From contig CAMDQH010000029.1 in NCBI GenBank assembly GCA_945905815.1, forward strand, positions 1-32,450: a DNA stretch of 32,450 nucleotides, given 5' to 3'. Source of the stretch: Bacteriovorax stolpii. Its GTDB lineage: Bacteria > Bdellovibrionota > Bacteriovoracia > Bacteriovoracales > Bacteriovoracaceae. Both the position numbers and the translations under genes were made by a program. Positions 28,248 through 32,450 of the stretch are shown here, piece by piece (the first letter of the stretch is position 1; the number at the start of each line of letters is the position of its first letter). The notes below the pieces were generated by a model that saw nothing but the letters and a program-made list of their open reading frames with translations, ran no database searches and was not told where the DNA came from.

Positions 28248-29240
28248 TTAGCGAACCAACCCTACGGCATTGTAGGCATTCTCAAGAGTCACGCGCGATC
28301 GAACTCGAGCACGTTCAGCTCCACTTTTCATCAGCTGACTCAAGTAATCCTGATTTTTCATTAAATCGTCATATTTCTCACGAACTGGCTTAAGTGTTTG
28401 TACAACGACTTCAGCAAGGTCTACTTTCAGATGTCCATACATCTTCCCTTCATACTCTTTTGTCAGTTGATCAGTCGTTTTTCGACTTAGAACCGAATAG
28501 ATTGTCATAAGATTTGATAGGCCTGGCTTGGTTTCAGGATCATACTTAACTTCTGTTCCAGAATCAGTTGCTGCACCTTTGATTTTCTTTTCGATTACTT
28601 TAGCGTCATCAATTATTGAAACAAAGTTTTTTTCATTTTCATCAGACTTGGACATTTTCTTTTCAGGTTCCTGCAGCGACATGATCCGAGCTCCTGATTT
28701 TCCGATGTAAGCTTCTGGCATTTTGAAAATGCCAGGGCCATATCGGTTTTCAAAAAAACCTACGATATCTCTACACAGTTCGAGATGCTGTCTTTGGTCT
28801 TCCCCAACTGGAACTAAGTCTGCTTGATACAAAAGAATATCAGCGGCCATTAAAATAGGATAAGTATACAAACCTGCATTAATATTCTTAACGTGTTTTT
28901 CTGATTTTTCTTTGAACTGAGTCATTCGATTCAAGTAGCCCATTGGTGTAAGGCAAGTGAGTAACCAAGAAAGCTCCGTATGCTCAGGGACTTGAGATTG
29001 AACGAAAATAATATTTTTATGTGGATCTAAACCTAGAGCAAGATATTGAGCGAAAAAACTGAAAGTCCGCTGTTGCAAAACTTTAGGATCTTGAAAAACA
29101 GTAAGCGCATGCAAATCGGCTAGAAAGTATAAACAATCATACTGCTCTTGAAGTTGCTTCCAATTATGAATAGCACCAATATAATTACCTAAGGTTAAAT
29201 CACCGGTAACTGTACTGCCGCTCAAAATTGTTTTTTTCAT
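28248..29240 (-). CDS. trpS: Tryptophanyl-tRNA synthetase
   Basis: This class I aminoacyl-tRNA synthetase charges tRNA-Trp. From the ATG at 29240 it is 330 residues, normal for the bacterial enzyme. The N-terminus KKTILSGSTVTGDLTLGNYIGA carries the HIGH-type motif as Leu-Gly-Asn-Tyr. LLYQADLVPVGEDQRQHLEL is the tryptophan/ATP region and EKKMSKSDEN is KMSKS. An in-frame TTG at 29267 would add nine residues unlike any TrpS N-terminus, so I prefer the ATG, although neither has a good Shine-Dalgarno. The gene follows the exported beta-rich protein by 46 nt, too short for a T-box leader. Confidence 0.96.
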   Translation of the reverse strand: MKKTILSGSTVTGDLTLGNYIGAIHNWKQLQEQYDCLYFLADLHALTVFQDPKVLQQRTFSFFAQYLALGLDPHKNIIFVQSQVPEHTELSWLLTCLTPMGYLNRMTQFKEKSEKHVKNINAGLYTYPILMAADILLYQADLVPVGEDQRQHLELCRDIVGFFENRYGPGIFKMPEAYIGKSGARIMSLQEPEKKMSKSDENEKNFVSIIDDAKVIEKKIKGAATDSGTEVKYDPETKPGLSNLMTIYSVLSRKTTDQLTKEYEGKMYGHLKVDLAEVVVQTLKPVREKYDDLMKNQDYLSQLMKSGAERARVRSRVTLENAYNAVGLVR

Positions 29241-29286
29241 TTGGTAAGTATACGGTTCAATTTGCAAAAAAACAAGGAAGGTCAGA

Positions 29287-30396
29287 CTACAATTGTGGGG
29301 CAGAAGCAGTGTCCATTTTTTTAGTTTTTTTAAAAACCTTAACTGAAATACCTAAGGTCACTGGCATATAGTTCAGCCTGTAAGTCGCGGTTCCATCCAA
29401 AAATGACTGCTTAATTTTTGAGGTCGTTATTTTTTGATCCATGAAGACGGCCAGTCTTCCTTTTTCATATTCAAGCCTGTGCCCAGCAGTGAAAGTTGCA
29501 CCCTTTACGCCCCAATCCTGTGACTTAGAATCACTCCCCCAATAATCATCCTTCTTCATATATGCACTGTAGCTATTCCCAGCAATCAAACCAACCTGCA
29601 CTGACGGAGTGTAACTTAGTTTTCCATATTTTTCACTCGAAACAATATCAATTTTTCTACCATAACCAATCTGTGGATTTATTTGTCGATAAGTGTTTTC
29701 GAGTCTCCAAAGATGCATTTCACCTGGTTGATTATTATATCCATCAAATTCTTCGCGGACTTTAATTTCTTTATCGACAGCAACTCCATCGATGGTACCT
29801 GTAACCTGTTTGACCTGGTGATTTACCATCAGGTATTTCATGTGAAAAAGAGAAAGTGTAAAAACATTTTTTCCTTTTTCTACGTTAATCATAAAAGTAT
29901 TTGTTGGTTCATCTATAAATCGAAAAGCATTATCAATACCCTTCAGGTTTTCGGACCTAAAGTATTCAAAACTGTGTCTTTCCTTCCATTCAAAATCTTT
30001 GATGTCGACATTTACGCGAGAACTTCGCAGTTTAACATCGCTATTAAAATACTCAGTCCGAGTATATCCAAAATAAAATTTGATATTCCATTCATCCCTG
30101 TCTTGATCAAGCTGTTTAATCGTAATAGGCTCAAAAGCTTGATCTTTTCCCATTTGATTTAAATTTGTACAGATACTTTGAATTTCTTTGGGAACTGCTT
30201 CTTTCTCATCTAATACTTTGGCCAAGTTTTTATGTAATTCTTCAAATGTGTTTTCGGAAGCAGGTTGGAGAACGAGACACTCTTCTTTAATAACTTCTTT
30301 AGGACACAAATCGAGAATATTTATATCCACTGAAAAGCTTTGCTGGCCGTAAGCGAGATTCGAAATAATAAGTATTAATAAGAGTGAATATTTCAC
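29287..30396 (-). CDS. Exported beta-rich protein, possible outer-membrane barrel
   Basis: I do not recognise this 369-residue protein. It has a short signal peptide (Met-Lys-Tyr-Ser, hydrophobic run, cleavage near Ala-Tyr-Gly-Gln). A region with three Cys (31, 40 and 75), two of them close enough to pair, follows to about residue 80. From about residue 105 onward, alternating polar/aromatic strands dominate (for example FYFGYTRTEYF, HSFEYFR, FTLSLFHMKYLM, PVTLGISVKVF), typical of a porin-like beta barrel. The end does not finish on an aromatic residue: about a dozen polar residues follow the last strand-like segment. The start is GTG at 30396 without a clear ribosome site. It could be an outer-membrane channel or a surface protein of unknown role. 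Confidence 0.65.
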   Translation of the reverse strand: MKYSLLLILIISNLAYGQQSFSVDINILDLCPKEVIKEECLVLQPASENTFEELHKNLAKVLDEKEAVPKEIQSICTNLNQMGKDQAFEPITIKQLDQDRDEWNIKFYFGYTRTEYFNSDVKLRSSRVNVDIKDFEWKERHSFEYFRSENLKGIDNAFRFIDEPTNTFMINVEKGKNVFTLSLFHMKYLMVNHQVKQVTGTIDGVAVDKEIKVREEFDGYNNQPGEMHLWRLENTYRQINPQIGYGRKIDIVSSEKYGKLSYTPSVQVGLIAGNSYSAYMKKDDYWGSDSKSQDWGVKGATFTAGHRLEYEKGRLAVFMDQKITTSKIKQSFLDGTATYRLNYMPVTLGISVKVFKKTKKMDTASAPQL

Positions 30397-30459
30397 GAAT
30401 ACTTATCGGTATTAATCAGGTTTTCTTAAGCTTTCATGTAACCAACCGAAAGAACTGGC

Positions 30460-31860
30460 CTATCCCCGCCAGGTAACAAGTGTTTTTCTCTCGCTAAAAT
30501 CCTCCATCGTGAAGCGAATTCCCTCTCGCCCTAAGCCAGATTCTTTCACTCCACCGTAGGGCATGTTGTCCGCTCGATAGGTTGGAATATCATTAAAAAT
30601 TATCCCTCCAACTTCAAGCTCTTGAGCTGCCATCTGCTGCAATTTTGAGCTATCCGTAAAAACTCCGGCCTGAAGACCAAACTTTGAACTATTTATTTCT
30701 TCAATCACTTTTGCAAAGTCATCATATTCATGGAGGATTACGATCGGCCCAAATGCCTCCTCACATGAAATTGGTAAATTTTTAGGAACATTTTTTAAAA
30801 TGGTTGGTTCAATCAATCGAGGATGACTAAATCCATTGACCTCGTCAACGGCCTTACCTCCAGCTAAAAGTAGAGCTCCACTTTTAGTCGCCTGATTAAT
30901 CCAATCCAAAATCCTCTTAAACGATCGATCATCTATAATTGGTCCAATGAGGGTTTCTTTTTTCCATGGATCGCCAAAACTTATATTTTTTGTCTCAGCT
31001 ACAAATTTGTCTTGAAACTTAGACGCAATTTCTTTGTGAACAAAGACATGCTGAATTGAGATACAAATTTGTCCGGCATAGGCGAAAGATCCCCAAACCG
31101 TTCGCTGAACGGCCCTTTCGAGATCAGCATCTTTATGAATAATAACTGCAGCGTTTCCACCAAGCTCAAGACTTACTTTTTTACGAATGGCCTGAGACTG
31201 CAACATCCATCCAACTGCATTTGACCCAGTAAAACTTAAAATAGTAAGTCGAATATCTTTCACTGCTATGGCCGTAAATTCATTGGCCGCCGTAAAAACT
31301 TGAAAGGCTTCCTTGGGAATCTGATCTTGAGAATCTGAAACCTGCTCACGAGCGGCCTCGAATATTTCCGCTAAAATATTCGAAGCACCTGGTGCTTGTG
31401 GAGGTGGCTTCAACATGACAGTTGCACCAATAGCAAGAGCTGGTGCAACTTTATGGGCAACTAAGTTTAAAGGAAAATTAAATGGAGCAATCGCCAAGAC
31501 TGGGCCCCTTGGAACGAAATATGAAACTGCAGCCGAAGTCATGGATGAGTAGGCCCTACCATAAGCTTCTATATCCAGAGGAATAAGGTCACCGCTGTAA
31601 CGTTTGGCTTCCTCTGAAGCAATGGTAAAAGTTGAAATCGCACGAGTTACTTCAGTATCCGCTAAAGTGACCGGTTTTCCTGCCTCGTTAACTATGGCCT
31701 TAACCAGATCAGCACGTCTCAACTCAATTCCTTCTGCCATCTTCAGTAGTAAGCGCGAGCGTGTCGATCGACTGACATGACGAAATTTTTTGAATGCTTC
31801 ATCACAAGTAGTAATGAGTTTCTCCATCTGATCTTTATTAACGTTCAAATGCGTTTCCAT
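30460..31860 (-). CDS. NAD(P)-dependent aldehyde dehydrogenase
   Basis: This ALDH-superfamily enzyme oxidises an aldehyde to a carboxylate. Key residues are present: Asn128 in the FNFPLN oxyanion segment, Lys151 in MLKPPPQAP for cofactor ribose, the FTGSNAVG loop (210-217), the general base Glu232 in LELGGN, and the nucleophile Cys266 in AGQICIS. The C-terminal EEAFGPIVILHEYDD and GGVKESGLGREG are also standard. At 466 residues it is slightly short. The Pro-rich 'KPPPQAP' replaces the usual Lys-Pro-Ser/Ala-Glu, and the missing Glu may affect NAD versus NADP choice. The substrate is unknown; glyceraldehyde-3-phosphate (GapN-like), lactaldehyde and succinic-semialdehyde types are similar. GGAG precedes the ATG. 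It lies nearest the integrated element. Confidence 0.93.
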   Translation of the reverse strand: METHLNVNKDQMEKLITTCDEAFKKFRHVSRSTRSRLLLKMAEGIELRRADLVKAIVNEAGKPVTLADTEVTRAISTFTIASEEAKRYSGDLIPLDIEAYGRAYSSMTSAAVSYFVPRGPVLAIAPFNFPLNLVAHKVAPALAIGATVMLKPPPQAPGASNILAEIFEAAREQVSDSQDQIPKEAFQVFTAANEFTAIAVKDIRLTILSFTGSNAVGWMLQSQAIRKKVSLELGGNAAVIIHKDADLERAVQRTVWGSFAYAGQICISIQHVFVHKEIASKFQDKFVAETKNISFGDPWKKETLIGPIIDDRSFKRILDWINQATKSGALLLAGGKAVDEVNGFSHPRLIEPTILKNVPKNLPISCEEAFGPIVILHEYDDFAKVIEEINSSKFGLQAGVFTDSSKLQQMAAQELEVGGIIFNDIPTYRADNMPYGGVKESGLGREGIRFTMEDFSERKTLVTWRG

Positions 31861-32061
31861 TTTTCTCCTACAAAGACCAAATCTACTGGCCTAGAAACAG
31901 GTATCTCAATTATCGCCAAATAATTTTCCATTCGGCTAGTATGACTGCCTCAGAGTTATATTTGGATGGCGTTATTTTGATAGAAAATTTCTGGATAAAA
32001 GATTCTACATGCTCTAAAAATAAGCTGTTTCTGAATCTGTAATATAAGTGATTGTAAAAAT
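31861..32061. other. Intergenic DNA between aldehyde dehydrogenase and element boundary
   Basis: The gene-free stretch runs from 31861 to 32162 (302 bases). In this first part I see no open frame of note, no terminator and no clear promoter. It presumably carries the aldehyde dehydrogenase promoter and old chromosomal flank. The remaining part (32062-32162) holds the att-like sequence and the end of the recombinase gene region. Confidence 0.5.
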
Positions 32062-32078
32062 TGGTTGCGGGGGCCGGA
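32062..32078 (-). other. Putative att site: tRNA 3'-end fragment with CCA
   Basis: On the minus strand 32078-32062 reads TCCGGCCCCCGCAACCA. From memory this equals the 3' end of a tRNA (T-stem 3' side, acceptor strand, discriminator A, CCA), best fitting initiator tRNA-Met of many bacteria. The bases on its 5' side contain no TTCRANY T-loop and no matching 5' acceptor strand, so this is a fragment, not a tRNA gene. Such duplicated tRNA 3' ends mark the far end of elements integrated by tyrosine recombinases, and the C-terminal part of one lies 85 nt away. Confidence 0.6.
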
Positions 32079-32095
32079 CTACCGATAGACCCCCG
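32068..32095. repeat. Inverted repeat CGGGGG...CCCCCG at the att-like site
   Basis: CGGGGG (32068-32073) and CCCCCG (32090-32095) are inverted arms separated by 16 nt, overlapping the tRNA fragment. This is an unusual GC-rich block in AT-rich surroundings. It may be the recombinase core-binding site or a hairpin downstream of the recombinase gene. Confidence 0.5.
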
Positions 32096-32162
32096 TAATT
32101 ATTAAATTCAAGTTACCGCGAGAAGCAAAAAGAAGCAAATCCTAAAGAAGCTCTATAAAAGA

Positions 32163-32450
32163 CTATTTCCGATCTGTAATCTTGAAGACTTGGGCCTCAT
32201 GATCCTGAGACAATTTATAACCCAGCTTGTCAGTCCCGCCTTGAACCTCAACCCCTGCTTTCCTAAGATAGCAGTTTGTAGTTGTTAGCTGATGGTGACC
32301 AACAATCGACATTACCCTAACCAGAGATTCCCCCCTAGCTAGAAGATTAGTTATAAAAGTCGCTCTCAGATCGTGAAACTTTACTTGGGTAATTCCTAAA
32401 GATGCACAAAACTCTCTTGTAATCCTTGCTTGCTCACCATTCTCCCATTC
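32163..32450 (-). CDS. Tyrosine recombinase/integrase (partial, 5' end outside window)
   Basis: The last 95 codons and TAG stop (32165-32163) of a phage-type integrase are visible, reading in from the right edge. They hold the C-terminal catalytic set of the family: His26-Asp-Leu-Arg29, then Gly51-His52-His53, then the nucleophile Tyr61 in TNCYLRK (numbered from the edge). About 34 residues follow the Tyr, a somewhat long tail. The N-terminal arm-binding and core-binding domains lie beyond the window. The gene ends 85 nt from the tRNA-like fragment, the arrangement expected of an element integrase next to its att site. Local GC appears a little higher than in neighbouring genes, consistent with foreign origin. 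Confidence 0.85.
   Translation of the reverse strand, partial: EWENGEQARITREFCASLGITQVKFHDLRATFITNLLARGESLVRVMSIVGHHQLTTTNCYLRKAGVEVQGGTDKLGYKLSQDHEAQVFKITDRK

Follow-up and report, generated by a model that had tools for sequence, protein, structure and literature searches.

The window analysed here, a stretch of 32,450 nucleotides, comprises the entire contig C29 of a draft assembly (141 contigs, 3.01 Mb). Its right end very probably marks the edge, on the side of the integrase, of a mobile element that has inserted into the 3' end of the chromosomal tRNA-fMet gene and whose other junction resides on contig C35. The element is a tRNA-targeting integrative element, a kind which is well known, this example of it being new. 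With it, a mobile-element border becomes fixed in a lineage of predatory type, the mobile DNA of which is little described.

The integrase-side junction on C29

The features of the window to be considered for the junction and its chromosomal flank are as follows.

28248..29267, minus strand: trpS (PF00579), core gene on the chromosomal side of the fMet integration locus
29287..31860, minus strand: two lineage-specific genes (369-aa protein and aldehyde dehydrogenase) in the interval between trpS and the fragment
32041..32061, minus strand: original fMet trailer, chromosomal flank of the empty site (match in G025)
32057..32071, minus strand: block common to both element ends, 15-mer CCCGCAACCAATTTT, identical to the tRNA-fMet 3' end plus trailer on C35
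32062..32078, minus strand: tRNA-fMet 3'-end fragment, 17-mer TCCGGCCCCCGCAACCA (exact match)
32068..32095, minus strand: hairpin of tRNA acceptor strand and element-borne complement (fold -16.8 kcal/mol, z -2.4)
32119..32139, minus strand: paired direct repeat TTTGCTTCTTTTTGCTTCTCG with two GCTTC copies spaced by 10 bp, presumed arm-type sites for integrase/excisionase
32163..32450, minus strand: tyrosine integrase (PF00589), C-terminal 95 residues, 5'-open at the contig end

The open reading frame at 32163-32450 aligns with positions 113-168 of the 172 positions of the Pfam model PF00589 (Phage_integrase, E 4e-8) and possesses HDLR (HxxR), GHH and the tyrosine of NCY, which bears out the first-pass annotation, where an integrase C-terminus with these signatures had been recognised; the first catalytic arginine and the lysine would fall upstream, outside of the window. 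C29 ends at 32450, within both the integrase gene and the element. Relatives of this integrase were identified across the Bdellovibrionota with up to 80% identity, and in 18 of 52 homologous integrases a tRNA 3' end (at most 4 mismatches in 15) was found no further than 203 bp past the stop codon, as compared to 3 of 421 controls.

The fragment at 32062-32078 is the 3' end of the initiator tRNA (fMet). Its 17-mer is present as a single copy both in the window and in the genome, and since ARAGORN predicts no tRNA anywhere in the window, it is a fragment lacking the tRNA body, in agreement with what had been read for the minus strand beforehand. The sole initiator tRNA gene of the genome, complete according to ARAGORN, was located on C35 (24760-24836, plus strand) and its 3' end, TCCTGCTCCCGCAACCA, shows two mismatches in 17 to the fragment in the window. 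What both ends have in common is the 15-mer block, which comprises the acceptor 3' strand, the discriminator, CCA and the first trailer bases, while the sequences flanking it diverge on both sides between C29 and C35. The crossover should have occurred within or adjoining the block. As the exact 17-mer is found in none of the 57 relatives' genomes, bases 32072-32078 most likely stem from the half-site of the element itself and not from the host tRNA. To the left, positions 32041-32071 match the fMet 3' end and trailer of the relative G025 over 31 bp with one mismatch, as is expected for the displaced chromosomal half, and the element side is that to the right of 32062, as had been proposed.

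It had further been proposed that a second copy of the 17-mer would mark the far end and that its absence would speak against an integrated element. The genome was searched and contains no second exact copy, which, taken literally, is that very outcome. It is not regarded as refuting, because in complete sister elements the identity of tRNA and fragment extends over 12-19 bases only (acceptor 3' strand, CCA and first trailer bases); the exact 17-mer was hence dropped as a far-end criterion in favour of the 15-mer, which is the block truly shared.

The second junction and the repeats at both ends

Given that the window is a whole contig, the far end of the element is beyond the reach of walking to the right, and no contig of the assembly bridges C35 and C29. 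The intact tRNA expected at the far end was nevertheless identified in the expected relative orientation, albeit on another contig. Across 58 genomes, the pattern TTTGCTTCTTTT(1-2 nt)GCTTCTCG has exactly two occurrences, namely at C29:32119-32139 (minus strand) and at C35:24961-24982 (plus strand), and these repeats of 21 and 22 bases are near-identical, differing by one T. This repeat, present once per end, is one of three independent results which link C29 to C35, the others being the position of fMet relative to trpS and the layout of complete sister elements, both described below. On C35, a triple GCTTC-type repeat follows the fMet gene at +127, +138 and +149. When searched for more widely, a GCTNC pair spaced by 9-11 bp was found 3' of the integrase stop codon in 18 of 35 relatives, with a spacing of exactly 10 bp in 17 of these 18, as compared to 2 of 620 controls. 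The triple repeat was present in 5 of 62 distinct tRNA flanks, as compared to 15 of 4820 control stretches. Like the counts of tRNA 3' ends past the integrase stop codon given above, these counts are descriptive, as the motifs were picked after viewing part of the same sequences and the loci are partly related. The GCTTC repeats probably serve the integrase or its excisionase as arm-type binding sites.

C35 stops 1716 bp past the tRNA-fMet gene, and together with 388 bp on C29 this yields an element length of at least about 2.1 kb, the interior being missing from the assembly. The 1.7 kb at the right end of C35 encode a 56-aa ORF, a 179-aa protein and the C-terminal 205 aa of a truncated protein that contains the motif LDCCFSG. 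The latter two cargo proteins (L096:5290-6550, i.e., the right end of G000:C35) adjoin the intact tRNA; for both ORFs no significant family was found in Pfam and no match with PADLOC, and the LDCCFSG-motif ORF had no match among viral contigs. A caspase-like reading of the 205-aa protein is not claimed, as its sole basis would be the resemblance of this motif to the caspase catalytic site.

The fMet-trpS locus in related genomes

In the window, 2.8 kb separate trpS from the fragment to its right, both having the same orientation. Among the relatives, fMet likewise lies upstream of trpS in the same orientation, at a distance of 71 bp in G032, about 13 kb in G002, 23 kb in G003, 30 kb in G015, 35 kb in G005 and 49 kb in G012. 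This order, seen together with trpS left of the fragment, supports joining C29 to C35. The two genes preceding fMet are conserved in the genus, while the sequence 3' of fMet differs in nearly every member, and C29 beyond trpS is core chromosome, whose collinearity with genus members spans 20 kb (70-81% identity). Relatives which keep the integrase and its flank as core chromosome, named at the outset as an outcome that would contradict an integrated element, were looked for; what was found instead is variable sequence 3' of fMet, which in G032 is reduced to the 71 bp before trpS. The empty site that had been anticipated was encountered in other species, namely in G032 and in G025, where fMet is joined to the same trailer as found in the window.

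The two genes that separate trpS from the fragment probably represent older accessory content of the fMet-trpS locus, residing outside of the element. Neither adjoins trpS in 19 genus or phylum loci, and the best full-length match to the aldehyde dehydrogenase within the genus is 38% identical. The same pair is found on contig C129 of G025 with 95% DNA identity, against about 75% for the G025 core. This contig (95% identical to the window at 29.0-30.4 kb) was dropped as evidence: since the syntenic region of G025 itself is C15, at 74-78%, C129 is probably misplaced or misbinned, or was recently transferred.

Second fMet 3' copies were identified 3.4-12.6 kb downstream of fMet in G010, G011, G018 and G024. 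The fMet-trpS interval is an integration hotspot in the genus. In L183 (G010) and L192 (G024), 3.4-4.5 kb past fMet, islands devoid of an integrase are enclosed between fMet 3' copies; they have several genes in common, are stacked in G024 and may be moved by integrases encoded elsewhere. In L189 (G018:C24) the second copy lies 12.6 kb from the intact gene and is identical over 53 bases from before the anticodon onward, which is a different crossover subsite at the same tRNA.

Complete sister elements

Three elements with an integrase of the same family were found complete on single contigs, two at tRNA-Pro (L148, about 5.3 kb, and L152, about 5.8 kb) and one at tRNA-Ser (L154, 10.2 kb); L169 was excluded from this set, its tRNA fragment being located 1.2 kb beyond the integrase. 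All three possess the order tRNA, triple GCTTC-type repeat, cargo, integrase and tRNA 3' fragment, with the triple repeat beginning 126-136 bp past the tRNA. This layout matches the ends seen on C35 and C29 and supports joining them. These small integrative or mobilizable elements of Bdellovibrionota resemble the element described here in integrase family, tRNA-side triple repeat and order of parts, but target tRNA-Pro or tRNA-Ser instead of fMet. Moreover, L154 encodes a TraG/VirD4-type coupling ATPase as well as a Replic_Relax protein. For the C29/C35 element neither was observed, and a search of the genome for Replic_Relax, run without a positive control, gave no match. Directly before the integrase gene of L148 and L154 a small HTH_17 gene was identified, which is a candidate for the excisionase.

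The two junctions, the repeats, the order of genes in relatives and the sister layout are direct observations. We infer that a single element connects C35 to C29 and that it may still be able to move.

Alternative explanations

The alternative which fares best, yet is considered unlikely, is that C35 and C29 represent the outer ends of a tandem array, consisting of at least two related elements or of one element and a remnant. Stacking at the fMet locus of relatives, documented by the second fMet 3' copies in the four genomes named above, makes such an array conceivable, and a stack of two elements with one end visible of each would be expected to look the same. The two differences in 17 positions between the fragment and the resident tRNA also speak against the main reading given at the outset, as does the absence from the assembly of both a bridging contig and the N-terminal part of the integrase, which was searched for with a full-length relative. 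On the other hand, the arm repeats at both ends differ by a single T, and the assembly contains no second element of this integrase family. A single element spanning both contigs is preferred.

Far less probable is that the C29 end is misbinned or chimeric and the junction an assembly artefact. The assembly is indeed a draft of 141 contigs and C29 stops inside the integrase gene, but the collinearity of C29 with genus members, the presence of the expected fMet trailer and of trpS in its flank, and the repeat pair tying it to C35 within the same bin all argue for a genuine junction. That the 17-mer is a mere terminator stem of the integrase gene, resembling a tRNA by chance, is the least probable reading. 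In its favour, the 17-mer forms the hairpin of -16.8 kcal/mol and is followed by TTTTT; against it, the 17-mer is an exact tRNA end (shuffled windows yield 0.02 matches on average even when up to 3 mismatches are allowed), the trailer behind it matches the fMet trailer of a relative, related integrases show the same with tRNA ends of fMet, Pro, Ser and Gly, and a consensus terminator scan finds no terminator at 32068-32095. The hairpin may additionally act as a terminator. It probably reflects inverted core sites, and it may bind the integrase or help to end int transcription.

Proposed mechanism of integration

The suggested mechanism assumes that the integrase recombines a short block of the element, made up of acceptor strand, CCA and trailer, with its counterpart in the tRNA gene. 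The copy brought in by the element would restore the tRNA 3' end, which now resides on C35, while the displaced host fragment would come to lie beyond the integrase (32057-32078). In the direction of the tRNA, the resulting order would be the up368 gene, fMet, the triple GCTTC repeat, cargo (mostly unassembled), the integrase, the paired GCTTC repeat, the hairpin, the fMet fragment, the old trailer, the aldehyde dehydrogenase, the 369-aa protein and trpS. In Islander terms, the crossover would correspond to the J subsite, i.e., the T/acceptor junction (PMC4383910).

Comparison with known systems

Islander tDNA genomic islands, which range from 2 to 200 kb, are characterised by an intact tRNA at one end, a displaced 3' fragment in the same orientation at the other and a tyrosine integrase inside (PMC4383910). 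The element described here has these parts and the presumed subsite J crossover in common with them: the intact tRNA is fMet at C35:24760-24836, linked via the repeats and not by contiguity, the displaced fragment at 32057-32078 (minus strand) lies in the same orientation on the downstream side, the PF00589 C-terminus is inside, and the empty sites of G032 and G025 are from species other than the one studied. Its integrase is located distal to the tRNA and reads towards the fragment. In many tRNA islands, the integrase adjoins the intact tRNA.

Through the sister elements, the junction is linked to a family in which small elements (5-10 kb) are available in full and with both ends mapped, a useful resource for work on target choice by tRNA-targeting integrases. 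An even chance is given to the broader idea that one Bdellovibrionota integrase family kept a fixed arm layout, with a triplet of GCTTC-type repeats lying about 127-150 bp inward from the tRNA end and often a pair, spaced by 10 bp, past int, while members of the family switched among fMet, Pro, Ser, Gly and perhaps His, the element half of each att mimicking the acceptor arm of the target. If true, this family would provide a natural series on integrase target change. In L196 (G029), a genus-level neighbour, a similar triple repeat, GCTACCAATTGTGCTACTTCTGGCTAC, is located 167 bp after fMet, and this locus is possibly another element of the same integrase family.
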